NCBI GenBank assembly: GCA_945862295.1
Contig: CAMAXT010000011.1
Coordinates: 1 to 50,264, forward strand
Direction: 5' to 3'
From: Pseudobacteriovorax antillogorgiicola
GTDB taxonomy: Bacteria > Bdellovibrionota_B > Oligoflexia > Oligoflexales > CAIYRB01
Length of the DNA stretch: 50,264 nucleotides
Part shown: positions 15,974 through 49,928 of the stretch, piece by piece
Layout of the letters: every line of letters begins with the position of its first letter
Position numbering within the stretch: position 1 is the stretch's first letter
Notes under the pieces: model-generated
The model's database searches: none
The model's input: only the letters and a program-made list of their open reading frames with translations
What the model was told of the DNA's origin: nothing
Translations under genes and position numbers: made by a program

Positions 15974-18583
15974 TTGAATCATTATATTCTGGAAAATGGC
16001 GTTGAGGTCGTACTTAAGAACACAACATTCTCAGATACTGTCACCATGCAGGTTTGGGTTGGAGTTGGTTCTGTCCATGAAAATGACGCCGAACGAGGCA
16101 TGTCGCATTATCTTGAGCACATGCTTTTCAAGGGCACAAAGAAGTACGGGCCCGGAGAAATAGCCTCCACTGTCGAGATGTGCGGTGGGGAGATCAATGC
16201 CTATACAACGTTTGATAACACAGTTTACTACCTAACTCTAAATAGTGATCACGCCCATGACGGCCTCGACTTATTGTTTGAAGCGGTTGCCAACAGCAAT
16301 ATCGACGCGACTGAATTTTCTCGTGAAAAAGAAGTTATTTTAGAAGAAATTCGCCGTTCTAATGATAGTCCAGGAAGTAAAATTGGCCGGCGGGTTTTCG
16401 AACTTGCATTCCATGACACCCAAGCAGCACTTCCGATCATTGGTAGCTCGCAATCTGTCTCGGACTTTACGAGAGACCAGGTCTATAACTACTATAAAAA
16501 ATGGTACGTGCCGAACAACATGCGCATCATTGTTGTTGGGAAATTCCACGAACAAGACATGCTTGACCTCATTAGCAAAACATTTGGTGGGCTAGAAAAA
16601 GCTCAGTTGCCATTTTTATTTAACCCGCTTGAGATCTACGACAACAGAAAGCCAAATGTAGAAAATAAAGGTGATAAGAAAGTTTCGGTGCTTAAAGGTG
16701 ACTTTAAGCAGACGAGACTTGAGATTGTTTTTCCCGCACCGTACCTAGAGCATCCGGACACAATGGCGCTTGATATCGCTTCATTTGCCCTCGGAACAGG
16801 CGAAATGGGGCGTTTAACAAGACGTCTTCGTGATGAGTTGGGACTAGTATCTTCGATTGGTTCGTCGGTATTCTCGCCAGTCTTTGGCGGCATCTTTGAA
16901 TTTAGTGCACTCCTTGAAGAAAAAGATTTGGTGGCGACGCTGCGTGCGATCGAAGACGAATTAACGATATTCCTAACCGATAAGCCTATCACAGAAGAAG
17001 AGTTGGCGCGCGCAAGAGCGACGCTGCGTGTCGACCGCATTTACCGCGATGAAACCGTCGATGGTCAGGCGCGCAGTATTGGATTTGGGCTTAAGACAAA
17101 ACTCCGTATGCATTTTGATGCGGTGTCGATGGCGATGATGGAAGACATCTCTCGTTCGGAAATTCATGGCGCAGCGAAGCGTTGGTTGAATCTTGAAAAT
17201 GCTAGGATCGTTGTTCTTGTTCATGATGATTCCGAGCTTAAAACCTCAGATTTAGATGGTGTTTTTGTAAATCAGAAACTGATGCATTTGCCAATTCACC
17301 TAGGTGAAATCCTCGAAGGGAAGGCGCAAGAGAACCAAGCGGTTGAAAAGTTTAAAATCGCAGACAACATCACGCTGCTCACCAAACAAAACGCGAATAT
17401 ACCGCTGTTTACTTTAGTCGGTGCATCGCGCGGCGGTATTCGCGAAGAGGAGCGCAAGCAGGCTGGAGTCTATAATTTCTTAGCTGGCATGCTTGCCACA
17501 GCTACGAAGAGTATGAACTTTGATGAGTTTGTTGGAACCGTCGAAGCGCATGGCGCGTCAGTTGAAGGTTTTTCGGGTAAGGATTCTTTTGGCATTCACG
17601 CACAGTGTGCGATCGATGACTTCCAGATTTTTCTTCCGATGGTTATTAAATCTTTGCTTGAGCCGGTATTCCCTGAAGAGCAGTTTGACTCGTTAAAAAG
17701 AGAGATTTTGCAGGCTTTAATTCGCGCAAAAGACTCGCCGTCTTCTGTGTGCTTTCGCCGTTTGCAAGAACTGATGTACGGCGACCGTTCTTACAGTTGG
17801 CCGGTTGCTGGTCTTGAAGAAACAGTTCAAGATATTACGCCTGCGTCGCTGATGCAGTTCTATCAAAACTACGCCTTAGGACGCGACTGGGTGTTTAGTG
17901 TTGTGTCGCCGTTTGATCACGCGACGACCCATTCTATTTTAGAGCCATTTCTCTCGCAGCTTGCCGATAAGAAGCAGTCAAAACCAAATAAGCCGGAGAT
18001 GGCGCCTCTCGATATTAAGGATGTGAAAGTCGAACGCCTCGTCATGGAGCGCGAGCAAAGTCATATTGCAATCGGCTTCCAAGGCATGACCTGGGGTCAT
18101 TCCGATCGCCCTGCACTGGATGTTTTGATTAATGTTTTGGGAGGTCACGGTGGACGATTGTTCCGCGAACTCCGAGATAAGGAAAGCTTCGCATACACAG
18201 TTAGTCCTATTATTTCATATGGTTGTGAGAGTGGAATCGTCGGCGCCTACATCGCCTGTGCTCCGGCAAAATCTGAATTAGCACTCAAAAGACTTTTAGA
18301 AGAAATTCAAAAGATCGTGGATCATCCACCCGAAGCAATCGAATTGAAACGGTCGGTAAACTACATCGTTGGGTCCCATGCGATGGGACTTCAGAAATGC
18401 GATTCTCAGGCCAGCACGATGGCTCTGATGGAACTCTATGGCTACGGGTTTGACGATTTTAAATCATACCCAGACCGCATTAAACGAGTCACGGCAGCGG
18501 AAGTGCAAAAAGTTGCAAAAAAAGTGTTCACGAATAATGCTTATCGTGCAGTCATTGTTGGACCGTCTCAAATTCAACAATGA
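15974..18583 (+). CDS. M16-family zinc metallopeptidase (two-domain, insulinase type)
   Basis: An 869-residue protein with two tandem M16 halves. The first half is catalytic: HYLEHMLFKGT gives the inverted zinc motif HxxEH, and the distal glutamate is in EKEVILEEIRR about 75 residues later. The second half (from about residue 450) lacks the zinc motif, as usual, and shows the typical GGHGGRLFRELRDKESFAYTV block. No signal peptide is obvious, so it may act in the cytoplasm, or export is not visible by eye. Start is a TTG at 15974 after AAGTAGG. It follows the exported protein by 18 bases. Confidence 0.92.
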   Translation: MNHYILENGVEVVLKNTTFSDTVTMQVWVGVGSVHENDAERGMSHYLEHMLFKGTKKYGPGEIASTVEMCGGEINAYTTFDNTVYYLTLNSDHAHDGLDLLFEAVANSNIDATEFSREKEVILEEIRRSNDSPGSKIGRRVFELAFHDTQAALPIIGSSQSVSDFTRDQVYNYYKKWYVPNNMRIIVVGKFHEQDMLDLISKTFGGLEKAQLPFLFNPLEIYDNRKPNVENKGDKKVSVLKGDFKQTRLEIVFPAPYLEHPDTMALDIASFALGTGEMGRLTRRLRDELGLVSSIGSSVFSPVFGGIFEFSALLEEKDLVATLRAIEDELTIFLTDKPITEEELARARATLRVDRIYRDETVDGQARSIGFGLKTKLRMHFDAVSMAMMEDISRSEIHGAAKRWLNLENARIVVLVHDDSELKTSDLDGVFVNQKLMHLPIHLGEILEGKAQENQAVEKFKIADNITLLTKQNANIPLFTLVGASRGGIREEERKQAGVYNFLAGMLATATKSMNFDEFVGTVEAHGASVEGFSGKDSFGIHAQCAIDDFQIFLPMVIKSLLEPVFPEEQFDSLKREILQALIRAKDSPSSVCFRRLQELMYGDRSYSWPVAGLEETVQDITPASLMQFYQNYALGRDWVFSVVSPFDHATTHSILEPFLSQLADKKQSKPNKPEMAPLDIKDVKVERLVMEREQSHIAIGFQGMTWGHSDRPALDVLINVLGGHGGRLFRELRDKESFAYTVSPIISYGCESGIVGAYIACAPAKSELALKRLLEEIQKIVDHPPEAIELKRSVNYIVGSHAMGLQKCDSQASTMALMELYGYGFDDFKSYPDRIKRVTAAEVQKVAKKVFTNNAYRAVIVGPSQIQQ

Positions 18584-37022: not shown

Positions 37023-38654
37023 TTAGCCCTTATTGGGCGAAAAAACAAATGGGTAACTAATCTCGACGCTACCATTCTGAGGATTAGGAAATTGCCACGT
37101 GCTCATTTTTTCTTTGATGCACTTTTCGAGCTTCTTGTCCTTGATTGTTGAGCTAGCTAACTCAACCCCGCTGACCACACCTCGAGAATTGATCGTCCAT
37201 TTCCATTCCATCGTTCCAACCGCTTTATCGTTTCGACGGAGGCTTTGTTCATAGCAGATTTGCAGCTGAAATTTATGCTGATTTATAAAACGTTCGACCA
37301 AAGCCTTCTCGATGGTACCTGTTTTCACCGTGGCAACTTTGTCTTGGTGTGCAACTTGTTTGGACGCAAATCCCATTCCCTGCATCTGCTTTAGACGATC
37401 ATCGAGACTTTGAAAATCGAAATCGGAAAGATAAGTAGCGAATGTCGACTCGGGGAGAAATCTAATCGGTTCTTCGAATGATGATGCTTTCTTTTTAAGA
37501 TGGATTTGGGCAATCTGTGCAGTTTTTCCGAGTTTCAAAGCATCAAGATACATCTGATCTTCAGACGATTCCGGATTGAAGGCGGCCGAAACACTGTCAA
37601 CGAACTTCTTTAGCGCGTCATTGCCGCGACCGACGTTTCGGTAGTCATCGAAAGTGTATTCTTCTTCTTTCGGGAATTCTGCCGACACGACGCGGCGAGC
37701 TTTTAGGGAGAATTCGAAGCCTTCTTGCATGATATCGAGCTTATCAATGACTCTTTGCATCGTGCCGACCATGGTTTCGCCAACGACGGCGGGAATCGCC
37801 ACCATTGTGGTTTTACCGCGCGCTTTGATGTGATCGCGGGTATCACTTTGTTTGGAGGCAAAAGATTGGATCAATGCCGCCTGATTTTCGCGCATCTCCT
37901 CGTATTTTGCCACAGATGTTGGAAACAAAAGATTTTCGTTACGTATTTCCATGCCAACCATGTTTTCAGCAACGGCTGAATAATAGTTGATCACAGAACG
38001 AACCGGTGCTAAGCGGTTGTAGTTTTTCTGAAGTGCTTCAGGCGCGGTTTCAAAGTGTTTTGGGTGAACGAATGGTAGGCTATATTCCGGTCTGATCTCT
38101 GCGATGTTCTTGGGGTTGTATGATTTTCGACCCATCAAGCCAACCACGAAACTACCGACTAACACGGACCCTACCAATAATGCAGAACCAAACGCCATGC
38201 GTTCAGTGCGATTGGTTAAGTGCAGACCAAGAAGACTGCCCTTATAGGACTTACTGACGCCAGATTTCGCTTTTTTGTCGGACTTAGGCTTCTCATTAGT
38301 GATTTTAACCATAATCCGTAGATCGTTGTGCGTGATACTTGCGTAGTCTCCCCGCACCATATCGATAGAGGACTGACCTTTTTCTTGCCTGGTAATGCGG
38401 ACAAGTTCGCCCGTTGTCGTGGCGAAACCTTCCCAGCCATGTTCAATAATAAGTTTGGCGGTAGATTTAGTGCAGCTGAGAAATAGATACTGCGTATTGT
38501 TAATCGGATAAAATGGCAGAACTAAAGGCCCTGTGCCTTTTGAGGTAAGTTTCAGGTTTTCGTTTGTAAGATCCTTTTCAACAGTAGCAAGAGTAGCCCC
38601 ATTTTGGAGTACTTTTATGTATAGATAAAGTTTTCTTTTCGAGCTTTTGGCCAT
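37023..38654 (-). CDS. AgmX/PglI C-terminal-domain protein (TonB-like energy transducer)
   Basis: A 543-residue protein with three parts: a cytoplasmic N-terminal domain of about 150 residues, one membrane helix (about 175-200, GSALLVGSVLVGSFVVGLMG) and a long periplasmic part. The last 95 residues match the AgmX/PglI domain: ICYEQSL, then GTMEWKWTINSRGVVSGVELASST, KKLEKCIKEKMSTWQFP and ISYPFVF, with the conserved pair of Cys. In Myxococcus such proteins work with ExbB/ExbD-like AglRQS motors in gliding. Here the ExbB-like and two ExbD-like genes lie just upstream, so the four form a proton-driven transducer by inference. Confidence 0.85.
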   Translation of the reverse strand: MAKSSKRKLYLYIKVLQNGATLATVEKDLTNENLKLTSKGTGPLVLPFYPINNTQYLFLSCTKSTAKLIIEHGWEGFATTTGELVRITRQEKGQSSIDMVRGDYASITHNDLRIMVKITNEKPKSDKKAKSGVSKSYKGSLLGLHLTNRTERMAFGSALLVGSVLVGSFVVGLMGRKSYNPKNIAEIRPEYSLPFVHPKHFETAPEALQKNYNRLAPVRSVINYYSAVAENMVGMEIRNENLLFPTSVAKYEEMRENQAALIQSFASKQSDTRDHIKARGKTTMVAIPAVVGETMVGTMQRVIDKLDIMQEGFEFSLKARRVVSAEFPKEEEYTFDDYRNVGRGNDALKKFVDSVSAAFNPESSEDQMYLDALKLGKTAQIAQIHLKKKASSFEEPIRFLPESTFATYLSDFDFQSLDDRLKQMQGMGFASKQVAHQDKVATVKTGTIEKALVERFINQHKFQLQICYEQSLRRNDKAVGTMEWKWTINSRGVVSGVELASSTIKDKKLEKCIKEKMSTWQFPNPQNGSVEISYPFVFSPNKG

Positions 38655-38671
38655 GTTTCTCGAACCGTTTA

Positions 38672-39244
38672 CTAGAAATTATCTGTTTTTAATCGGCTTG
38701 CGTTGTCGTTAAGAGCCGACGCGTTTTCGTCATAGAGATTTATTGTTTCGAACCCGTAGTTTGAGATCCCGGCTTCAGCTAGAGCGTAAAGTATTGGGCG
38801 GAAGTGGCGGTATTTGAGCTTTTGATCGACCGCCAATACAACGCGCTTTTGGCTTTGATAGATACGCTTGGAAAGTGCTGCTGATTTAATTTCTTCGTTT
38901 ACACGTGCTTTCAGGTGCAAGACGAAAGCGTCGAGTGATTCAATAGTTTGAACTTCCTCGGACCAACTAAAAATACGTCGATTGTTGTCTGCGACAGTAA
39001 TTTTTCCTTCCTCGGATGTAACAGAGAACCAAATTACACTATCCTCAGCCTCTTCTCCTGATAATGGAAGAACTGAGGCGCCGTGTCCTGCGCGAGGATT
39101 TGTACTTAAAACCACATGTGCGGTTAACAATAGTACGAGGAAAAACGAAATCAGGCAGGGAAATGGGTACCATGAAGACGATTCTCTTAATCGCTGCTTT
39201 GCAGCCATCATCGCATAATAAACATTTGGTGATCTTGGTTTCAA
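38672..39244 (-). CDS. ExbD/TolR-like protein, second copy
   Basis: A 190-residue bitopic protein: basic N-terminus, one helix (about residues 27-46, PFPCLISFFLVLLLTAHVVL) and a periplasmic domain. The end of that domain, VVLAVDQKLKYRHFRPILYALAEAGISNYG, follows the ExbD/TolR pattern. The helix contains no Asp or Glu, although ExbD and TolR use an Asp there to carry protons. Its start overlaps the other ExbD-like gene by 4 bases. It may be a structural partner of the active subunit. Confidence 0.8.
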   Translation of the reverse strand: MKPRSPNVYYAMMAAKQRLRESSSWYPFPCLISFFLVLLLTAHVVLSTNPRAGHGASVLPLSGEEAEDSVIWFSVTSEEGKITVADNNRRIFSWSEEVQTIESLDAFVLHLKARVNEEIKSAALSKRIYQSQKRVVLAVDQKLKYRHFRPILYALAEAGISNYGFETINLYDENASALNDNASRLKTDNF

Positions 39245-39798
39245 AGCGCAAAACCTCCGCCCAAGATGACCCGAGCGTAGTTTCCATGTTCTTTAAGTTG
39301 AGCCAGAACTTGGATCACTATGGGCATCGGAATGTCGCCAGAAGGCACAAAAACTAGGACATTATCTCGTGGGATATTTGCTTTTGCAGTTCGATTTTTC
39401 TGCCATTTTTCCAGATCAACAATCAGATCGCCGGTGCGCGGAATGTTGTCAACATGCGGAACGACAAACTTATTATCGTTTCTTTCAATTGCACTCGAAA
39501 ACGATGCGAGGTCACCGAAATAGAAACCCTTCAGCGTCATCAGAACTGCTGTAGTGTTGTCTTTTAGTGAGTCATAGGTTGTTTCTTCGAAATTGTGGAA
39601 GCCTAGATCCTTGACAGCGGCTTGAACCACCGGGATTTCAGCAGAAACGACGCCGTAGCGCGACTGCATGGTCACGGCTCTGAAGCCAAACCCTAAGATC
39701 ACAGAAAGCCCAAGAATCCCGATGGTGGCGATTACGATGGGCCACTCTAGATCAGATGATTTCTTCTTCGTCCTTGATGTCATCCACCGATACGTCAT
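39241..39798 (-). CDS. ExbD/TolR-like protein, first copy
   Basis: About 185 residues from the ATG at 39798. One helix (about residues 20-40) follows the acidic SSDLEW, and a periplasmic domain ends NVLVFVPSGDIPMPIVIQVLAQLKEHG, as in ExbD. An acidic D/E pair stands at the edge of the helix, but none lies in the hydrophobic core. The frame is open to 39933, which would overlap exbB by about 180 bases. Of the internal ATGs at 39798 and 39783, the first has a GGAAGA upstream and is preferred. The overlap with exbB is then 47 bases. Confidence 0.76.
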   Translation of the reverse strand: MTYRWMTSRTKKKSSDLEWPIVIATIGILGLSVILGFGFRAVTMQSRYGVVSAEIPVVQAAVKDLGFHNFEETTYDSLKDNTTAVLMTLKGFYFGDLASFSSAIERNDNKFVVPHVDNIPRTGDLIVDLEKWQKNRTAKANIPRDNVLVFVPSGDIPMPIVIQVLAQLKEHGNYARVILGGGFAL

Positions 39799-40543
39799 CA
39801 AACGATTCTTCCGGTTGAGTTTGTGTTTCTGCGGCCATTGGTTGAGCGGATTCGCTGACTGAGCGGTCAGAACTTGCATCAGAAACCGAGCCAGATTCCA
39901 TAGGCATAAAGGCAGCCATTTCTTGCGGTGCAAGAAGGTTGGTTACGACCGCAACACCGTGGTGCATACGGTCTGTAAGAGTTGCGGCTATTCCTTTCAG
40001 GAAATAGAACCCAGCCATCAACACCATGCCGAACAAGAGTCCCATGGCAGTTGGGTTAAGTGATGCTGCAATCCCTTGCGCAAGAGATGATTGCTTGCGT
40101 GCCGAATCAAGGACGTCGATTGATTGGAATGCGCCAAACAAGGCATCGATTGTTCCTAAGATACCAACGAGCATGATGATCATACTGATTGCTGGTAGAG
40201 CACCAAGTCTTCGTTCGATGTTTGGAATGAATCCGATTGCTTCTTCTTCAATCGTGCCGCGGATGCGTGACGGATCTGATTCCGCAGCTTCTAAGGCGCG
40301 CAGAGATATTTTAGGCAGTGATGTCGACGACACGTTTTTACAAAGTGTGATCGCGCGGTCGTGATCTTCTGCATGAACCATTTTCTTAAGGTTCAGTAGA
40401 AACTTTGGAAAGTCGATGTTGTAAACAAATTGCAACATGATCAAACGCTCGATCATCAGCACAAAGGCGATGAACCCGAGCACTAAGATTGCAATTACAT
40501 ACCCATTAGCTGATTGTAGGCTTAGTGCCAGCTGACCCCACAT
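39752..40543 (-). CDS. ExbB/TolQ/MotA-family proton channel protein
   Basis: A 263-residue, three-helix inner-membrane channel subunit. The first helix is VIAILVLGFIAFVLMIERLIML. The cytoplasmic loop leads to the paired helices with the family blocks RRLGALPAISMIIMLVGILGTIDALFGAF and AASLNPTAMGLLFGMVLM. The TA of the last helix, equivalent to the proton-path Thr of ExbB/TolQ, is kept. The C-terminal tail is long, rich in Ser, Glu and Asp. It is the first gene of the exbB-exbD-exbD-agmX-rnj array and has an AT-rich hairpin in its leader. Confidence 0.88.
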   Translation of the reverse strand: MWGQLALSLQSANGYVIAILVLGFIAFVLMIERLIMLQFVYNIDFPKFLLNLKKMVHAEDHDRAITLCKNVSSTSLPKISLRALEAAESDPSRIRGTIEEEAIGFIPNIERRLGALPAISMIIMLVGILGTIDALFGAFQSIDVLDSARKQSSLAQGIAASLNPTAMGLLFGMVLMAGFYFLKGIAATLTDRMHHGVAVVTNLLAPQEMAAFMPMESGSVSDASSDRSVSESAQPMAAETQTQPEESFDDVSVDDIKDEEEII

Positions 40544-40556
40544 GGTTGCCTCGCTT

Positions 40557-40593
40557 AGATAATAATTTTCTCTTTGATTATTATATATTATCT
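40557..40593. promoter_or_regulatory. AT-rich inverted repeats in the exbB-like gene leader
   Basis: Two overlapping 8-bp perfect inverted repeats occur: AGATAATA (40557-40564) with TATTATCT (40586-40593), and ATAATAAT (40559-40566) with ATTATTAT (40577-40584). On the minus strand a TATAAT lies within them. The structure sits 14 to 50 bases before the ATG at 40543, next to a GAGG ribosome binding site, so it could be an operator or could restrict translation. Confidence 0.5.
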
Positions 40594-40692
40594 CGTTGGC
40601 TGCTGCGAAATCGCTCGCGACAGATTCATGCTTAAAATACCAATCTCACATTGGATTTGAGTCATTATGTTGAAAACATCAAATTTTGATCA

Positions 40693-42285
40693 TTATTTCT
40701 TACGAGAACGAATGCGGCTAGGTTTTGGATCTTCGATGTCAATTTGAATGGCTTCGGACTTCTTTTCTGCTGCACCAGGAGAGTTATTGGCCGTGCTTGT
40801 TTTTAGAGTCATCGCTCCAGAGTCATGGGCCCTGACGCAGGCTTTTAAAATTTCTGGATCAAAGAGTTCTTTTTCTTCGACGATGCGCTGAACCGCTGCT
40901 GATTGATCCATAAATCCAGAATATGCTCTGCCAGACACCATCGCATCGAATACATCTGCAATGGCGACAATTCTTCCAAAAAACGGAATATCTTCGCCCG
41001 CCAAGCCATCTGGGTAACCTGTACCGTCCCATTTCTCATGATGATGTTTCACACCGGAAACAAAGCGATGTGCATTCGGCATGTGGGAGATGATGTTACT
41101 ACCGATCGTTGGGTGCAGTTTCATTTCGTCATATTCTTCGGAACTCAGAAGTGAGGCTTTCTTTAATATTGCGTCGGGAATACCTATTTTTCCGATGTCA
41201 TGACAAAGTGCGCTGACAAGGAGGAGTTTTTTTGTTTCGCGATTGAGCTTAAGTTCGTCAGCGATCGCAACACAGTAGCGACTGACTCGTTCTGAGTGAC
41301 CGAGTGTGTAGGTGTCTTTGGCTTCAATTGTGGCAACGACTGTTTCGATCATACCGACCATCCAGGCGTCGATCTCGCGTCTTAGAAGCATGGTCTCAAA
41401 GCTTGGCGCTGAGCGGCTGATGAGGGCTTGGACCATTTCAAGTTCTTTAGGCGTGTTGGCGTACTCGACATTATCGATTTCAATGTGAATGACACAGATC
41501 GTTTCGTTATTATGAATCATTGGAAAGATGATGCGGTTGCGGTTTGCACTTCCAGCATTTCCCGCATCTGAGATCAAAAGCACACCTTGCTTTCTCGCGA
41601 CAACGTCTTCGAGTGACCGTTGGCTGAGAAGAAAAGACTTCTGCTTCTTTTTGAATTGTCTCGACGCGTAGGGAATAAGTTGTCTATTCGCGGCAGCCCA
41701 AACGAAAACCGCGGCTCTTGAAATCGACGGCATCAACTGACCAATGGACTTTAGCAGAGTTTTGCTGGCCTCTTCGAGGTCGTCAATCACCAGGATGTTG
41801 CTGTGCAGGTCATAAATTTCTTTGACCGATTTTAAATTGTCTTGCAGCTGTTCGACGACACTGACTTGACTCAGTCTTATCGGCGTGTATTTAACGTCAT
41901 CGTGGCTTTTTCCAAGGTCGATTGGTCCTTTTAGGCCGAGGTCATCGGAGAGCACCATATCAAAATTGACGAATTCAGAGGTGATTTGGATGTCTGGCTC
42001 GGAAGCGGCAAACTGAAACTCCGTCGAGCCGATCAGGATTTTGTCGCCGTTCTTTATGATCGAGTTGAGGATCTTGTCGCCGTTGATATAGGTGCCGTTT
42101 TTTGATTCGAGGTCCTCGCAAATGTAGAGTCGACCGCGTTTTTTGATACGAAAATGAAACCGCGACACTTCTTCGTCATCGACAACGAAGGTGTTGGTTT
42201 GATCCCGGCCAAAAGTTGCGGGGAATTCGGTTAATGCTAGACGTTTGCCCGCATTGTATCCGCGTTCCACAATCAATAATGACAT
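40693..42285 (-). CDS. FHA domain plus HD-GYP domain signalling protein (putative c-di-GMP phosphodiesterase)
   Basis: From the ATG at 42285 about 530 residues. An N-terminal FHA domain contains FGRDQTN, SRFHFRIKK and SKNGTYINGD, the residues that read phosphothreonine. A middle region (about 150-310) looks like a GAF-type sensor by position. The C-terminal HD-GYP domain has HSERVSRY, CHDIGKIGIPD, HHEKWDGTGYPDGLAG and IVAIADVFDAM, all metal and GYP residues in place, so it should be able to hydrolyse c-di-GMP. The frame continues upstream to a TTG at 42372; the ATG was chosen because it has a G-rich ribosome binding site. It stands 149 bases before exbB, in the same direction. Confidence 0.86.
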   Translation of the reverse strand: MSLLIVERGYNAGKRLALTEFPATFGRDQTNTFVVDDEEVSRFHFRIKKRGRLYICEDLESKNGTYINGDKILNSIIKNGDKILIGSTEFQFAASEPDIQITSEFVNFDMVLSDDLGLKGPIDLGKSHDDVKYTPIRLSQVSVVEQLQDNLKSVKEIYDLHSNILVIDDLEEASKTLLKSIGQLMPSISRAAVFVWAAANRQLIPYASRQFKKKQKSFLLSQRSLEDVVARKQGVLLISDAGNAGSANRNRIIFPMIHNNETICVIHIEIDNVEYANTPKELEMVQALISRSAPSFETMLLRREIDAWMVGMIETVVATIEAKDTYTLGHSERVSRYCVAIADELKLNRETKKLLLVSALCHDIGKIGIPDAILKKASLLSSEEYDEMKLHPTIGSNIISHMPNAHRFVSGVKHHHEKWDGTGYPDGLAGEDIPFFGRIVAIADVFDAMVSGRAYSGFMDQSAAVQRIVEEKELFDPEILKACVRAHDSGAMTLKTSTANNSPGAAEKKSEAIQIDIEDPKPSRIRSRKK

Positions 42286-42445
42286 TCCTGCCCCCAGTAC
42301 TTTCCTATCGGCGGTTTTAATGGCTAGCTGAACCCTTTGGCGATTTGAGCCGGGGGTAAAGTTTTCTGGCAACTTGCCGAAATGTTTGGAGAGTAGGTGT
42401 GCCTGGGTTCAGGCCCATGCCCTACAGATAGCGGGAGGAGTTACC

Positions 42446-42883
42446 GTGGCAATTGCCAAAATAAAAATGACGATGTTTGCGGTTTTCACATGCGTGTCCT
42501 TCGGGACTGTGGCTCGCGGAACTGGCTTGCCGAAAATTGGTGAGCGCGTTTACGTGATTAAAAAAGATAGCTCTCAACCTGTTTCGATCGAGAAAGATGT
42601 GAGCGCAACTAAGGACAGCGATGTCGTTTTGAAAGACCCGAGTTTAACGACGACGACACGACAACCGGTTCGAAAAGTAGAGAATAAGACTGTTTTGAAG
42701 GTGATTAAGCCAGCAAAAAAGAGTGGCCAGATGAGCTTTAAACCAGTGGCAATTAATGGAAATATGAAAAATCCACGCGTGGAGTTTCAGCGCGAATACC
42801 TGAAAGTAGGCATTGCTGAAGAGTCCTACGGTGTGGACTTTTTCCAAAAGGTGAACGAGCCGCTCACCAACTCAGATTTCTGA
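42446..42883 (+). CDS. Small exported protein of unknown function
   Basis: A 145-residue protein starting at GTG 42446, where GGGAGGAG lies 5 bases upstream. A signal peptide is likely (MTMFAVFTCVSFGTVARG). The mature part is basic and Lys/Val/Thr-rich with no Cys (about residues 30-100) and ends in a segment NPRVEFQREYLKVGIAEESYG. I recognise no family. It is divergent from the FHA/HD-GYP gene, so the two may share regulation. Confidence 0.65.
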   Translation: MAIAKIKMTMFAVFTCVSFGTVARGTGLPKIGERVYVIKKDSSQPVSIEKDVSATKDSDVVLKDPSLTTTTRQPVRKVENKTVLKVIKPAKKSGQMSFKPVAINGNMKNPRVEFQREYLKVGIAEESYGVDFFQKVNEPLTNSDF

Positions 42884-43143
42884 GTGAGTCAGCGGAGCGA
42901 AGTTCCCCGATCCGTCAGCCCCCGAGCCCCTTAGAGCCCTTCCCGTTTCTGCCGGCCGTATATTAAGTTTGTATAAGCGATACCATATGAGTATCAGCAT
43001 TTGACTGGCTGGTCAACTTAAAAGAAATTGCAGGCCCCAGCGCGACTTCTGATAGATATCATGCAATGAAATTAATACTATACCATTCAATCGGGACAAT
43101 CCTTAATCGGTTTAAAACATGTTTCAGAATGTGAGCACCTGTT

Positions 43144-43707
43144 TTGCAGTTCATTCTCGACCTCGATAAACAGCTCTTTCTCGCCATCAATGAGATGTCT
43201 GGGTCTTATCTGTTCGATCAATCGATGCTGGTTGTTTCGGCGCGTTGGCCTTGGGTGGTTTTGATTTTAGCGATCGCTTTAGTGACGATTGTTAAACGGC
43301 AGTGGTCCAAATTGCGCGTCGTACTTGTGAGTGTTGCGATCTTAGGTTTCTGCGATGCGGTAACAACCTATGGGTTGAAGAACAATTTCGAAAGACTTAG
43401 GCCGTGTAATGAGCTGGAAGGCGTCAACTTGGTTCAACCAAGTTGCGGCAGTAAGTTCGGATTTCCTTCAAACCACGCAGCAAACGGTGCAGCACTTGCG
43501 AATTCTATCTTTATTCTGGTTCGCAATCGACGCTACAGTTTAGGCATAGCTGGCTTAGTAGTGGCGGTCTGTTTTAGCCGCGTTTACCTGGGAGTTCACT
43601 ATCCACTGGACGTTCTTTGTGGGGCACTCTTCGGTGCGATAATTGCTTTTTTGATACTGAAGAGTATAGAGACATTTCATCCGGGCTTTTTTAAAGCTCT
43701 CCAGTGA
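43144..43707 (+). CDS. PAP2-family membrane phosphatase
   Basis: A 187-residue inner-membrane protein with about five helices and the full PAP2 phosphatase signature: KNNFERLRP (Kx6RP), PSNH (PSGH variant) and SRVYLGVHYPLD (SRx5Hx3D). Such enzymes dephosphorylate undecaprenyl pyrophosphate, lipid A or phosphatidic acid; undecaprenyl or lipid A substrates are the likely ones here, but cannot be separated. Start is a TTG at 43144. Its 3' end overlaps the convergent M1-like gene by 17 bases. Confidence 0.9.
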   Translation: MQFILDLDKQLFLAINEMSGSYLFDQSMLVVSARWPWVVLILAIALVTIVKRQWSKLRVVLVSVAILGFCDAVTTYGLKNNFERLRPCNELEGVNLVQPSCGSKFGFPSNHAANGAALANSIFILVRNRRYSLGIAGLVVAVCFSRVYLGVHYPLDVLCGALFGAIIAFLILKSIETFHPGFFKALQ

Positions 43708-46468
43708 TGTCAAAAACGAAACCAGGTTTTTTCTTAGTCTCGCTTCCAGCCGAGGAAGATAGGATCGCAAGAAATGTAAAGCGAGTAACTGCTAGGGAAC
43801 CGACGCCAGAAATATCGCCCCCAAGAGGCAAGACTACACCGAGACCTTTTGATCTGTACTCGATATCAAAGTCATAGGCTTTGCCCCAGTCAGCATAGAC
43901 CCGCCACTGGATTTGCCTGGACAACACGACAGTGCTTTCTGGAATCGGCAGATAGAACGGAAGAGCGATACTTGCCTCACCAGCGACAATGTCGGCTGAT
44001 TTATCCAGTCCCCTAATATCTATTTTCAAATTAGCTTCTTTGATTTCGTTTGGTTTAAATTTTGCTGAATCAGGCGGCGATCCCGAAGAAATGGTTTTAC
44101 CCCTGAAAAACCGCGCCATGATTCCGGAGCGCTCGGTAAAATTAAAGATACCCATGGCCGCAACTTTGTTTCTCTGGAACGAAAAACTCTGACCTTGCTC
44201 AGGTGAAATTTCGCTTTCAGTGCTTAAATCGTAAAAATAATTTAACGATTGGCCTTTTGGCCGCAGATTAAGATCGGCACCGAAGGTTTGGTGGGTTTGC
44301 TCTTTGTCTCCCGGGTGATCGCGGTTACGGACTTTTACCTGACCGCTTACTTGCAAGGAGTCGTTATCTAGGATCGGCGAGCGGATAGCATTTAACTCAA
44401 CGACCCGGTCATTTTCAAAAGAATAATTTACTGAGAGCTCTCCTTTGAGTGCCCAATCGGGAAGGGCATAGAGGAGTCTCAACTGATAGAACCATTGATT
44501 GGTCGACGGCGCGTGTTCGATCCTGCCGAGAATGCCGCTTTGCACGTACTTAAAGATCGCACTGCCAATTCCAATCGCCGCCGGTTCACCAGGAAGCCGA
44601 TAGCCGTAGGGAAACCAAACGACGGAGTATCGGTCATCATGGATTGTTTCGACCGTACCTGGAAAAAAGACTAGGCTCGGCATGCCGGTCTTATTGTCAA
44701 AACGATTTGAATCGAATGTCTCGTGATCAGGATCGACAAGTGCTTTTTCTGGTTTAAAGGGGGAACGAAATTCCGCAACCCAGAGGCCATCGGCTCCACG
44801 TAACGCCCTTGTTTTTTGCGAATTTCCAGCTTGATCTTTAATTTGAATCATCGGCGGGTAATCGACAGATCCAGTCTGTTCAGCAACGACTCTGACGCGA
44901 TGCGAAGCGCCTTCGAGGTTGCTTTCAAATGATTCGATAGAAAAATCCGGCCAACCGGAATCCGTCCACCACGCGAGCAGGCCTTTTGACACACTCTGGC
45001 GCACTTCACTGCTAAACGGTGAGGGCAGATCGTTGACGAATTGATAAAAATTTAACGGGGTGATGGCCTGGTTTTGATAGCGAAGATAGAATGCGCGCAA
45101 AAATGCAGCGAATTCTTTCTTCCCAACCAAATGCATGATTTGTCGAAGAGAAAATGCGGCACGTATATATGAAAGTCCGTGCTGGGTATCCTGAGTTCCC
45201 AGACTTTTCAAATCACTGTCTGTTAGGGTCGTGTAGGGAGAAAGGCGGCGCAGACTGGCTGCAGTAAACGCGCTCATTTGAAGATAATTGAAGGAAAGAA
45301 AGCGGCCACCTTTATTGTATTCTTTGAATAAATCGAATGCCGGAGAAATCTGTTGCAGTGTTTCGAGAGTGAGAAATTCAACCAGTCCCGAGATCAACCA
45401 TTCGTCATCTTTTCCAGAATCGATCGACGCCCCAAACCATTGACGGACAAGTTGGGTGACGGCAGTCCAGTGGATCCAATTTAACCAGTCCTTTTGAATT
45501 CTGTTGGCAAACTCTTGCTTGGGGCGATTGATAGAGATCATTTCTGGAATTGAGTAACGCTGAAGTTCGTCAGTTTCGATGATATTGAGAGTCTTAAAAG
45601 GGAAAGCACCGAGATATTCTTGAATTATAGGAAGTGCTGCCGAGACCGTCTTCGTCACATCTTTGAATTCTGGCGATGAATATTTGTAATTTACCTTTAA
45701 TGCACCGAATGTTTCGGTATGGCTGATTAAGCCCTTTGTTAAAACAAAGGCTAAACTTCGCTGTGACGATGATATTGTCGCGACCGAATCAGAACTTGTC
45801 CCCGTTCCGGTATATTCCCAGCCTGCAGGGAATTTTATCGTACCAGCGAAATCAACTGCTTTTGGGGCACTAAGAGACGTTTCTGCGCCGACTAAACATT
45901 CGTCGGCGATGACCGGTAAAAATCCATCAAAAAATAGCTCGCGTTCACTAGATTCAGCTAGTTTTGGGATCCTTGAATTTATCTGAAACTCGAGTGTGTC
46001 GGCACTTGTCCAGCCGATCGGAAGTTCAACTCTCAGAAAATGATTCATGGGTGTCGAAATAATTTTTGCAGGTGCTGCTAGGGTTAAGCTTGTTCCGCCG
46101 CCGGTAAACTGTAGGACATTTCGCTGGGACGTAATGTCATTGAAACGTTTAATCGAGCCCCTATCAAGACCGTAGCCACTCCAATTGTAGGGAATGAAAA
46201 GACAGTTGCTCGAACCAGCGTCGAAATTAGTGATTCTGAGTTTTCCAACGACAGAGTCGGGAAGATTTCTGTTATTGGGAATGACGTTAAGATCGAAATC
46301 GAACTTAATCGCATTGTCTTTTGGATTTTGCGCATGAAGAGAAGCACCATAAAAACCGACGCCCATCAATGTGATGAACGCCAGCAGCATTGCCTTTAGG
46401 GTTGAAGCCCTTGAATGCGGAAATGGCTGCAATTTACGCCTCAGATTCGAAAAATCTCTTTCCTTCAT
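43691..46468 (-). CDS. Exported M1-aminopeptidase-like protein with lost active site and beta-rich C-terminus
   Basis: A 925-residue protein with a signal peptide (AMLLAFITLMGVGFYGASLHAQ). Residues about 50-270 are beta-rich like the M1 N-terminal domain. At 335-365 the M1 core can be aligned: canonical HELAHQWFG is TQLVRQWFG (338-346), and NEGFA is ISGLV (359-363). Both His and both Glu needed for zinc and catalysis are gone. A helical region follows to about 520, then a long beta-rich part (about 530-925) with segments such as KGLGVVLPLGGDISGVGSLAVTRFTF that recall an outer-membrane barrel. The start at 46468 overlaps fadJ by 35 bases; an alternative ATG is at 46390. Confidence 0.72.
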   Translation of the reverse strand: MKERDFSNLRRKLQPFPHSRASTLKAMLLAFITLMGVGFYGASLHAQNPKDNAIKFDFDLNVIPNNRNLPDSVVGKLRITNFDAGSSNCLFIPYNWSGYGLDRGSIKRFNDITSQRNVLQFTGGGTSLTLAAPAKIISTPMNHFLRVELPIGWTSADTLEFQINSRIPKLAESSERELFFDGFLPVIADECLVGAETSLSAPKAVDFAGTIKFPAGWEYTGTGTSSDSVATISSSQRSLAFVLTKGLISHTETFGALKVNYKYSSPEFKDVTKTVSAALPIIQEYLGAFPFKTLNIIETDELQRYSIPEMISINRPKQEFANRIQKDWLNWIHWTAVTQLVRQWFGASIDSGKDDEWLISGLVEFLTLETLQQISPAFDLFKEYNKGGRFLSFNYLQMSAFTAASLRRLSPYTTLTDSDLKSLGTQDTQHGLSYIRAAFSLRQIMHLVGKKEFAAFLRAFYLRYQNQAITPLNFYQFVNDLPSPFSSEVRQSVSKGLLAWWTDSGWPDFSIESFESNLEGASHRVRVVAEQTGSVDYPPMIQIKDQAGNSQKTRALRGADGLWVAEFRSPFKPEKALVDPDHETFDSNRFDNKTGMPSLVFFPGTVETIHDDRYSVVWFPYGYRLPGEPAAIGIGSAIFKYVQSGILGRIEHAPSTNQWFYQLRLLYALPDWALKGELSVNYSFENDRVVELNAIRSPILDNDSLQVSGQVKVRNRDHPGDKEQTHQTFGADLNLRPKGQSLNYFYDLSTESEISPEQGQSFSFQRNKVAAMGIFNFTERSGIMARFFRGKTISSGSPPDSAKFKPNEIKEANLKIDIRGLDKSADIVAGEASIALPFYLPIPESTVVLSRQIQWRVYADWGKAYDFDIEYRSKGLGVVLPLGGDISGVGSLAVTRFTFLAILSSSAGSETKKKPGFVFDITGEL

Positions 46469-48593
46469 CCGCCATTTTCTGCAACAGGGCTGACGGTTTA
46501 AACCGCGGCCCGTACTTGTCAGATAGACCGTTTAGTCGTTCTATGATGACGCGTGCGCCCATATGATCGACGTATTTGAAAGGTCCACCTAAAAACGGAG
46601 GGAAGCCAAGGCCAAAAACGGCGCCGACATCGCCATCGGATGCAGACGCAAGGATACCTTCTTCCAAGCAACGAATGCTTTCGTTCACGAAAACAAGCAC
46701 ACAGCGATCAGAAATCTCTTCCTGGTCGAGTTTTCCTGGTGTTGGGGTGATCCCAAGAAGTTGATAAACCGAATTGTCCGCACGGCCTTTTTTACCATCT
46801 TGATACAGGTAGAAGCCCTTGTTGTTTTTTCGGCCCAAACGCCCGCTTTCTGCTACTGGCAGGAGTCCTTTTGGCGTACTCATCCGTTCAGGAAATGCAG
46901 CTTGAATTGTCTCGAGAACATGCATACCAACGTCGATACCGACTTCGTCGATCAGTGTGATTGGTCCAACAGGGAAACCGAATTCAACAAGCGCGCTGTC
47001 GATTGATTCGATAGGACAACCTTCCATCAACATCAATGATGCTTCATTGAGGAAAAACGAAAGCGCTCTCGTTGTATAAAACCCTGGGCCATCTTTGACG
47101 ACGATGACTTGTTTTCCGATGTCTTGACCGATTTCGACCGTACGTGCAGTTACCCATGGCTCTGTGGAATCAGTCACAATAACTTCAAGTAGAGGCATTT
47201 TTTCTACTGGCGAGAAGAAATGCATACCAATGACTCGGCCAGGATTTTTTGCGGCGGCAGCAATTTTTGTAATTGGAATTGCCGAGGTATTTGTCGCAAA
47301 AATGAAATTTTCACCTGCGTTTGCTTCGGTTGCTTTCAAAATCTTTTGTTTCAGGTCTAGGTCTTCGAACACAGCTTCAACAATGATGTCACAGTTTTTA
47401 AAGCCGGTTGTGTTTAACCCCGGTGAAACTAACGCCATTTTTTGAGCCATTTCAAATGGCTTCATACGCTTACGGGTTACTTTCTTGCCAAAGTAGTCGG
47501 AAATATGTTTGAGACAGCGGCCGACAGAATCCTTGTTTGGATCAGAAATGAGGACTTTATAGCCTTTTTCTACCGAAATTGTTGTAATGCCCGCACCCAT
47601 AAATCCAGCGCCGATGACGCCGATGTGTTCGGCCTTCTTCTTGCCAAACTTCTTGTCCCCCGCCTCCTTGAAGCGGTGTTTTTTAAGCGCGTTTGTCGCA
47701 TGGTAAAGGTGAACAAGGCTTTTACTTTCTCTCGTCAATGCAAGGTGACCAAAGAACTCAGCTTCTTTTTCCAAGCCTTTTGCGAGAGTAGCATCAAAAC
47801 CATCGAAAATCGCATCGAGTGCTTTGTAAGATGCTGGATAGAATCCCTTAGTCTTTTCGTCGATCATTTCTTTCGCTTTTTTGTAGATCAGTTTTCTACC
47901 AAGCGGGTTGCCTTCGGTCGCCCATTTCGGCAGATCCGACGACCATTTTTTCGATAAAGAGATTCCGGTTCCGCCAGATTTTTTTCGTTTTTGAACGGCA
48001 AGACGGATGGACTGTTCGCGCAGAAGTTGCGGAGGTACAACTTGATCTACGAGGCCTATTTTAAGTGCCTTTTTTGCAGGTACCTTTTTACCGGTAAGAA
48101 TCATATCCAGCGCACTTTGGATACCAATCAGCCTAGGCAGACGCTGGGTGCCGCCAGCGCCAGGTATAAGGCCCAACTGAATCTCAGGAAGCGCGAGCTT
48201 AGTTGAGTTTTCATCTGTTGCGATTCGCCAGGTGCAGGCAAGGGCTAACTCAAGACCGCCGCCAAGTGCCATGCCAGAGATGGCGGCGACGCTGGGCACC
48301 TTTAGAGTCTCAAGCTTTGTTAAAATCGCCTGCATGCTGCGGGCACCAGCAGACGCTTCGTCCGCTGTTTTAAATTTGGTGATCTCTTCAATATCGGCAC
48401 CGAGAATAAAATCTTTTTTCCCGCTCGTAATGACGATGCCGGCTAGGGTGCTGTCAGATTCGAACGACGCAAGAATATCATTGAATTCGCGAAGAGGTGC
48501 TTCGGACAGCACATTTACTGGCTTTTCTGCGTGGTTTAAAATGCAGACAGCGACGTTGCCGATCTCGCGTTCAATTTTCCAATACTTGTACAT
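46434..48593 (-). CDS. fadJ: Fatty acid oxidation complex subunit alpha (enoyl-CoA hydratase / 3-hydroxyacyl-CoA dehydrogenase)
   Basis: A 719-residue bifunctional enzyme of beta-oxidation. The crotonase-fold N-terminal domain contains GADIEEI, GMALGGGLELALACTWRIA and LPEIQLGLIPGAGGTQRLPRL, including both catalytic Glu positions. The NAD-binding domain starts at GVIGAGFMGAGI (about residue 311), with HFFSPVEKMPLLEVI further on, and the two C-terminal 3HCDH domains follow (GFPVGPITLIDEVGIDVG). Length and partner resemble FadJ. It is preceded by the thiolase gene (12-base gap) and followed by the M1-like gene with overlap. Confidence 0.93.
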   Translation of the reverse strand: MYKYWKIEREIGNVAVCILNHAEKPVNVLSEAPLREFNDILASFESDSTLAGIVITSGKKDFILGADIEEITKFKTADEASAGARSMQAILTKLETLKVPSVAAISGMALGGGLELALACTWRIATDENSTKLALPEIQLGLIPGAGGTQRLPRLIGIQSALDMILTGKKVPAKKALKIGLVDQVVPPQLLREQSIRLAVQKRKKSGGTGISLSKKWSSDLPKWATEGNPLGRKLIYKKAKEMIDEKTKGFYPASYKALDAIFDGFDATLAKGLEKEAEFFGHLALTRESKSLVHLYHATNALKKHRFKEAGDKKFGKKKAEHIGVIGAGFMGAGITTISVEKGYKVLISDPNKDSVGRCLKHISDYFGKKVTRKRMKPFEMAQKMALVSPGLNTTGFKNCDIIVEAVFEDLDLKQKILKATEANAGENFIFATNTSAIPITKIAAAAKNPGRVIGMHFFSPVEKMPLLEVIVTDSTEPWVTARTVEIGQDIGKQVIVVKDGPGFYTTRALSFFLNEASLMLMEGCPIESIDSALVEFGFPVGPITLIDEVGIDVGMHVLETIQAAFPERMSTPKGLLPVAESGRLGRKNNKGFYLYQDGKKGRADNSVYQLLGITPTPGKLDQEEISDRCVLVFVNESIRCLEEGILASASDGDVGAVFGLGFPPFLGGPFKYVDHMGARVIIERLNGLSDKYGPRFKPSALLQKMADEGKRFFESEA

Positions 48594-48605
48594 AAATATG
48601 ACTCC

Positions 48606-49928
48606 TCAAATTCTTTCGATTAGCATGGCGCCGGCCATGGCGCCGGCAGCGCAGATTGCAATGACGCCAAACTGTTTGTCTGAGCGAATGAGTTCGTTTG
48701 CTAAGGTGGTGGCAAGCCTCGCGCCAGTTGCACCGAATGGATGTCCGATCGCAATCGCGCCCCCGTTAACATTCAAGCGGTCCATCGGAAATGCACCGAT
48801 ACCTTTTTCGCCAAAGTATTTGTCCATGAACCCATCGGATTCCATCGAACGAATGCAGCTAAGAACCTGGGCCGCAAATGCTTCGTGGATTTCGAAAAGG
48901 TCGATGTCGGATACTTTCAAATTATTTTTCTTAAGCAGAAGTGGGATCGCGATCGCTGGACCGATGAGCAGTTGCTCGTAGGGATTTACCGCTACAAAAA
49001 CAGAGTCGCGGATGATTGCTTTCGGTTTGAGCCCGAGCGAGCGCACGCGGGCGTCATCGCCAATTAACGTGATGGAAGCGCCATCTGTTAATGAGCTTGA
49101 GTTTGCGGCAGTAAGTGAGCCGTATTTTTTATCAAATGCAGGCTTTAGATTCGCCATTGCTTCGAGTGAGGTGTCGGCTCGGACGATGTTGTCTTTATCG
49201 ACGCAAACGTTGTATTTCGGCGAGGGCCAGATTGGAATGATCTCGTCGTTGAATCTGCCGGCTTCTTGGGCGTTGGCAGCTTTATGATGGGATTCAACAG
49301 CGAAACGGTCTTGATCCTCGCGGCTAATCAAATTGAATTTAGCCATCATCTCTGCGTGCTCACCCATAGTGAAACCAGTAAGTGGCTCACTAAGAGCCGG
49401 TGGTTTTGGCAGCCAGTCTTTAGCACTGAATTGTTTGACCATATTCAGTTTGTCGGTGGCAGAGCGAGATTTGCTGACTTTCACAAGGAATTTGCGGGCT
49501 TCTTTCGAATAGACGATTGGCACATCGCTCAAACATTCCACGCCACCAGCTAGGACGATTGCCGGTGTTCCGGATGCAATTTGGCGCGCAGCATCTGCGA
49601 TAGTTTGCATGCTGCTAGTGCACGCACGGTTAAGTGTATAGCCGTGAATGTGGGGCGGCAGTCCAAGATTGATCGCTGCATCTCTGGCAACGTTGCCGTT
49701 TTTTGTTTGGGGGACCACCACACCGCAACTGAGTTCATCGACCTCCATCATGTCGATGCCGACTTTTCTGATAAAGCCTTCGGTTACACGGCTGAATAGT
49801 TCCAGTGCGTCGCAATCCTCGAAAGACCCAAATGATTTAACAAAAGCCGATCTGGCTCCATCTACTAAAACCGGTTTGCCGTTTCCTTTTGGCAATGGTC
49901 GTTTAAACTTCGATTCTGTCATTGTCAC
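48606..49928 (-). CDS. fadI: Acetyl-CoA acyltransferase (3-ketoacyl-CoA thiolase), FadI-like
   Basis: A 440-residue thiolase that cleaves 3-ketoacyl-CoA in the last step of beta-oxidation. The nucleophile Cys lies in NRACTSSMQT (about residue 100), the His in GGAIAIGHPFGATGARL, and the second Cys in ICAAGAMAGAMLIERI, which varies from the usual CAAGGxGAAM of FadI at several Gly positions. The length and sequence suit FadI (about 436). First gene of the fadI-fadJ operon; a short near-palindrome lies about 20-30 bases before its ATG. Confidence 0.93.
   Translation of the reverse strand: MTMTESKFKRPLPKGNGKPVLVDGARSAFVKSFGSFEDCDALELFSRVTEGFIRKVGIDMMEVDELSCGVVVPQTKNGNVARDAAINLGLPPHIHGYTLNRACTSSMQTIADAARQIASGTPAIVLAGGVECLSDVPIVYSKEARKFLVKVSKSRSATDKLNMVKQFSAKDWLPKPPALSEPLTGFTMGEHAEMMAKFNLISREDQDRFAVESHHKAANAQEAGRFNDEIIPIWPSPKYNVCVDKDNIVRADTSLEAMANLKPAFDKKYGSLTAANSSSLTDGASITLIGDDARVRSLGLKPKAIIRDSVFVAVNPYEQLLIGPAIAIPLLLKKNNLKVSDIDLFEIHEAFAAQVLSCIRSMESDGFMDKYFGEKGIGAFPMDRLNVNGGAIAIGHPFGATGARLATTLANELIRSDKQFGVIAICAAGAMAGAMLIERI

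Follow-up and report, generated by a model that had tools for sequence, protein, structure and literature searches.

A family of Oligoflexia proteins that joins a maintained M1 pseudo-aminopeptidase module to a predicted Omp85-like barrel

Omp85 proteins build the outer membranes of bacteria and organelles. Their N-terminal module receives the substrate, and POTRA domains are regarded as the part that handles it. M1 domains, for their part, are peptide-binding folds, and one of them, TAF2 (the M1-like subunit of eukaryotic TFIID), has the fold without aminopeptidase activity. A survey of Omp85/TpsB proteins distinguishes ten subfamilies, among whose front domains are POTRA, WD40, patatin, metallo-type and others; some lack POTRA, an M1 module is described in none of the ten, and the word "peptidase" appears nowhere in the text (PMC4104836).

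The window analysed here is a stretch of 50,264 nucleotides from Pseudobacteriovorax antillogorgiicola. It encodes a 925-residue protein in which an M1 module and a predicted outer-membrane barrel are combined, and whose parts and neighbours are the following (.. marks positions in the window).

43691..46468, minus strand: whole gene, fusion of an M1 pseudo-aminopeptidase with an Omp85-like barrel, 925 residues (a single open reading frame; homologues are of like architecture)
46331..46468, minus strand: N-terminal extension and signal peptide, residues 1-46 (read directly from the sequence; low pLDDT, helix 21-37)
45677..46318, minus strand: M1 domain I-like beta module, residues 51-264 (AlphaFold2 model and PDB fold search)
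44954..45676, minus strand: M1 domain II, the catalytic fold (dead), residues 265-505 (profile E 2.7e-9; fold search E 4e-17)
45545..45556, minus strand: place of the lost GAMEN, about residues 305-308 (nine true M1 enzymes of related genomes as alignment reference)
45443..45457, minus strand: place of the lost HExxH, T338-Q-L-V-R342 (alignment with true M1 enzymes)
45431..45442, minus strand: kept QWFG, residues 343-346 (Q, W and G invariant across the family)
45389..45391, minus strand: Ser360, standing for the distal zinc-ligand Glu (alignment)
44660..44953, minus strand: M1 domain III-like beta-sandwich and linker, residues 506-603 (model strands; conservation)
43694..44629, minus strand: predicted 16-stranded barrel of Omp85 fold, residues 614-925, replacing M1 domain IV (separate AlphaFold2 model; PDB fold search)
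43994..44083, minus strand: longest loop, beta11-beta12, residues 796-825, at the position of loop L6 in Omp85 proteins (model loop lengths)
46434..48593, minus strand: upstream neighbour fadJ (Pfam, NCBIfam)
48606..49928, minus strand: upstream neighbour, thiolase of the fadI/fadA type (Pfam, NCBIfam)
43144..43707, plus strand: convergent neighbour, PAP2 phosphatase (Pfam; in most loci of the conserved region it lies next to the gene)

The hydrophobic stretch of the signal peptide comprises residues 21-37, with likely cleavage after LHA. The gene does overlap fadJ, as the original prediction had it, by 35 nt when the first ATG is used; the true start codon may lie slightly downstream of that ATG, because the overlap is just 4 nt in four close relatives. 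Elsewhere in the window (15974-18583, plus strand) an 869-residue protein matches the M16 families of both the YfmH and the YfmF type, and looks like a fusion of these partners into a single chain.

Whole-genome searches find 20 further copies of the gene in 18 related genomes, none with an internal stop, and the family alignment comprises 20 rows, the window protein and all copies except a truncated one (L019). Homology of the 925-residue protein to M1 aminopeptidases is established, since the family profile, the PF01433 matches, the AlphaFold2 model and the fold search agree. The PF01433 match is weak in the window protein (residues 339-480, 18.5 bits, below the Pfam cut-off of 27.7); 16 of the 20 family members match this profile, the best with E 7.4e-11. 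Searched against the PDB, the 20-member family profile matches solved M1 aminopeptidases over the catalytic domain (best the cold-active aminopeptidase 3cia, E 2.7e-9) and also TAF2 (6hqa, E 0.0019). The full model, run on the family alignment, has mean pLDDT 84.3 and pTM 0.84, and a PDB fold search with it places IRAP and ERAP on top (E 4e-17, about 600 aligned columns). Thus the model does contain the M1 fold. QWFG (343-346) and WL..G (357-361), the landmarks by which the original prediction had located the M1 core, align with those of true M1 enzymes. With ColAP (3cia), tricorn factor F3 and IRAP/ERAP the protein shares the fold of domains I-III together with the QWxG and WL..G landmarks. 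It differs from them in lacking HExxH, GAMEN and (in most members of the family) the distal Glu, in its predicted outer-membrane location, and in having the barrel where the helical domain IV, absent from the model, would stand; shorter forms exist among true M1 enzymes as well.

For the loss of the active site the reference is a set of nine true M1 enzymes encoded in related genomes; HExxH and G[AG]MEN are present in every one. In the window protein HExxH reads TQLVR (338-342) and the distal Glu is Ser360, as predicted; neither the zinc ligands nor the general base survives. None of the 20 family members has an HExxH at any position, none has GAMEN where the alignment would place it, and none keeps the first His or the catalytic Glu of HExxH. 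Only three members (L002, L003 and L011) have a His at the second position, and only two (L011 and L017) have the distal Glu, a scatter that looks like stepwise decay. The claim that every catalytic residue has been replaced holds for the zinc ligands, the general base and GAMEN, but not for the catalytic-Tyr position, which is occupied by Tyr434 (and by Tyr in nine of the 20 members, the window protein included).

Loss of catalysis has not been followed by loss of the domain. E298, N314, Q318, Q325, W331, W334, Q343, W344, G346, W357 and G361 are invariant in the family, and all of these other than the two glycines lie in or around the old groove, which suggests a kept binding surface. Between close pairs, dN/dS is 0.06-0.15 for the dead catalytic domain, similar to that of the barrel (0.06-0.09). 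The dead M1 domain is under purifying selection; what is observed is a maintained pseudoenzyme and not a decaying gene, in keeping with the retention of a dead M1 core that had been proposed for it. (The groove might alternatively have re-evolved a different hydrolytic active site, and the invariant E298, N314, Q318 and Q325 of the catalytic fold as well as Tyr434, Tyr in nine of the 20 members, could be taken that way. Trp, Gln and Asn dominate the conserved positions, however, and conservation does not pick out any candidate for a metal triad or a nucleophile, which makes such a hydrolase very improbable.)

The beta-rich C-terminus had been put at about 400 residues, perhaps forming an outer-membrane barrel. 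It is shorter, about 320 residues (604-925), and a barrel is indeed predicted: the full model has 16 strands over residues 614-922, and 16 strands are found again in a separate AlphaFold2 model of residues 596-925 (pLDDT 86, pTM 0.82). Odd/even alternation of hydrophobicity in these strands exceeds that of 2000 shuffles, but ordinary M1 beta strands alternate too, and the alternation is therefore by itself no proof of a membrane barrel. In a PDB fold search with the barrel, TamA of Pseudomonas and E. coli comes first (best E 4e-8), followed by BamA, CdiB, Sam50 and FhaC; the TM of 0.60 to TamA signifies a likeness at the level of predicted fold only. A BFVD search with the barrel yields only generic porin-like and nameless barrels. 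As to the alternatives of Omp85 and FadL that had been left open, the predicted fold argues for Omp85, and the 16 strands (a FadL barrel has 14), the fold search and the absence of a Pfam PF03349 (FadL) match in the window protein argue against FadL.

Assignment to Omp85 rests on the predicted fold, because sequence profiles fall short of significance. PF01103 (Omp85) is matched by none of the 20 members in Pfam; hhalign against BamA and TamA profiles built from related genomes gives no significant match (best E 0.03, 1.6% probability), and a PDB profile search with the barrel alone returns chance matches only. D860 is invariant, position 862 is G or A in 19 of the 20 members, and G-x-G and P-x-G-G come next, a stretch reminiscent of F-x-D-x-G ... 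G-x-G ... P in the BamA of these same bacteria. The window protein is without the (V/I)RG(F/Y) of Omp85 loop 6, at whose place five members have xRGF; the family has R786-x-F788-x-G790, which the model sets in strand 11. The family resembles TamA, BamA and other Omp85-TpsB proteins in its predicted 16-stranded barrel, in the long beta11-beta12 loop, and in an invariant Asp within an (F/Y)xDxG-like stretch with GxG...P near the end, as in the local BamA. It differs from them in having dead M1 domains in front in place of POTRA, and in lacking a PF01103 match and a clear (V/I)RG(F/Y). No POTRA-like unit is found in the model, in which M1 domain III precedes the barrel. Replacement of M1 domain IV by a predicted 16-stranded Omp85-like barrel is nonetheless well supported by modeling, and among the 58 genomes searched this barrel is seen only fused to the M1 part.

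The signal peptide, the even number of strands, the entry of the N-terminal module from the inside, and the Cys89/Cys191 pair, which is invariant in the family, lies within the M1 domain I-like module and probably forms a disulfide, are the grounds for regarding this as an outer-membrane protein, the M1 part of which would be on the periplasmic side. The opposite disposition would be generated by autotransporter-like display, in which the barrel moves the dead M1 module to the cell surface as an adhesin or receptor (as in PlpD, type Vd). An enzyme domain placed N-terminal to an Omp85-type barrel has its precedent in the patatin-Omp85 proteins (PMC4104836). Neither a patatin passenger nor POTRA, the marks of PlpD-like type Vd proteins, is detected by Pfam or in the model, and POTRA is thus missing between passenger and barrel. 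Moreover, the linker that joins the M1 beta-sandwich to the barrel (D586-G604) is short and strongly conserved, with D586, R589, F590, N592 and P603 standing out in the family alignment of the domain III-like and linker part; it suits a fixed periplasmic position, and display is improbable.

The family is present in 19 of the 58 genomes searched and found only in Bdellovibrionota of the Oligoflexia type, bacteria that have been little studied (named records include Pseudobacteriovorax and Oligoflexaceae). A scan of genome contigs with two degenerate patterns returns nine loci, all in MAGs of the Oligoflexia kind, and a tblastn search of plasmids has no match to the family. Roughly two in three of the related genomes searched do without the gene, so that it is not generally essential. 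The tree has two clades. In clade A the locus is conserved, with the gene order oxidoreductase - PilZ - fadA - fadJ - M1-barrel gene - PAP2 - FHA/HD - ExbB - ExbD - TonB-like. Clade B, which consists of the f6 family and the second copies in G004 and G005, occupies other loci, in f6 beside tig-clpP-clpX-lon. These second, diverged copies (L068 8065-10857 in G005; L069 8059-10851 in G004) join the f6 clade in the tree, a sign of an event long past, either duplication or transfer.

Two further features of these neighborhoods deserve record. The surroundings of the gene in the window (37023-43707 and 46434-49928) belong to a locus that is conserved across the order (L128-L136) and comprises PilZ, fadA/fadI, fadJ, PAP2, FHA-HD, ExbB-like, ExbD-like and AgmX/TonB-C-terminal proteins. 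By its appearance this is an energised envelope module with genes for beta-oxidation at its side. Clade-B copies are preceded by a gene, divergent from tig-clpP-clpX-lon, for a 96-residue protein with an HPt-like pattern (L073 7935-8225; same place in L070, L074, L075 and L076), its phospho-His position apparently lost in some; this protein has no match in Pfam or NCBIfam.

Overlap with fadJ had been taken as tying the protein to fatty-acid breakdown. On that account it would be a porin for uptake of lipids or fatty acids, serving the adjacent beta-oxidation genes, and fadJ is in fact directly upstream in nine of 21 loci (with the 4-nt overlap in four). In G010 (L064 3-2782), where fadA-fadJ is missing from the locus, the genes immediately downstream are acyl genes of the LuxE and LuxC kind, and this also is of a piece with uptake. 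On the other hand, fadA-fadJ is kept where the gene is not: PAP2 directly follows fadJ in G001, G006, G013 and G020, the locus of G007 has neither the M1-barrel gene nor PAP2, and in G011, G022 and G033 the copy is located elsewhere. Conversely, the gene is at the locus with no fadA-fadJ beside it in G010 and G028. Either can thus persist in the absence of the other, and the link to fatty-acid genes is mainly one of position. FadL-type proteins occur in these genomes independently of the M1-barrel gene, the fold is other than that of FadL, and clade B lies beside tig-clpP-clpX-lon; a specific tie to fatty-acid breakdown is not upheld. Fatty-acid uptake was rejected as the main function after this comparison of loci, in view of the independent losses, and such an uptake porin is quite unlikely.

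A receptor placed before an Omp85-like barrel is the simplest joint reading, because the N-terminal modules of Omp85 proteins receive substrate and M1 domains bind peptide. Operationally, the protein would be exported to the outer membrane, where the 16-stranded Omp85-type (TamA-like) barrel would sit in the membrane, while the three front M1 domains, devoid of the zinc site and of the substrate-anchoring motif, would reach into the periplasm where other Omp85 proteins bear POTRA. The dead groove might then bind, but not cleave, a peptide or unfolded polypeptide and offer it to the barrel, or else keep a partner there. The protein would thus be an accessory for outer-membrane assembly or translocation. 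Both ligand and role are inferred; the reading as a whole is preferred tentatively, and falls somewhat short of being probable. Against an Omp85-type role stands the fact that no dedicated substrate gene is linked to the M1-barrel gene. The main rival, which is possible if doubtful, makes the barrel a mere anchor and the dead M1 module a periplasmic receptor or scaffold (for a lipoprotein, an envelope peptide or a signalling partner) that moves no protein. It accounts for the same architecture (M1 fold, Omp85-like barrel, lost motifs), it agrees with the lack of POTRA and of a clear loop-6 motif, and sensor kinase genes adjoin clade-B copies in L070 and L075; but a simple anchor needs no 16-stranded Omp85-like barrel, and barrel residues are conserved at least as much as those of the M1 part.

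The known Omp85 subfamilies without POTRA (WD40-, metallo-type and others, and patatin-Omp85) likewise place an alien domain before the barrel, but not an M1 module (PMC4104836). TAF2 resembles the family in reusing the M1 fold without aminopeptidase activity, and differs from it in being nuclear, in having no barrel and in its unrelated role. Literature searches, for which subscription papers were mostly out of reach, found no precedent for an M1-Omp85 fusion, that is, for a dead M1 module and an Omp85-like barrel in one protein, the distribution of which is known from Bdellovibrionota-related genomes. That the family constitutes a new Omp85-type subfamily, with a dead aminopeptidase groove as receptor in place of POTRA and a pseudo-peptidase feeding an outer-membrane insertase or translocon, is a conjecture to be held more loosely still than the accessory role. 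With a dead enzyme as its alien front module, the Omp85-like barrel is a variant on the known theme of Omp85 front domains. If the accessory role proposed above is true, the groove of an enzyme that binds peptide can perform the substrate-handling job of POTRA or take its place. The family also provides a testable bacterial M1 pseudoenzyme, naturally present in some and absent from others among close relatives in which the locus is otherwise intact.
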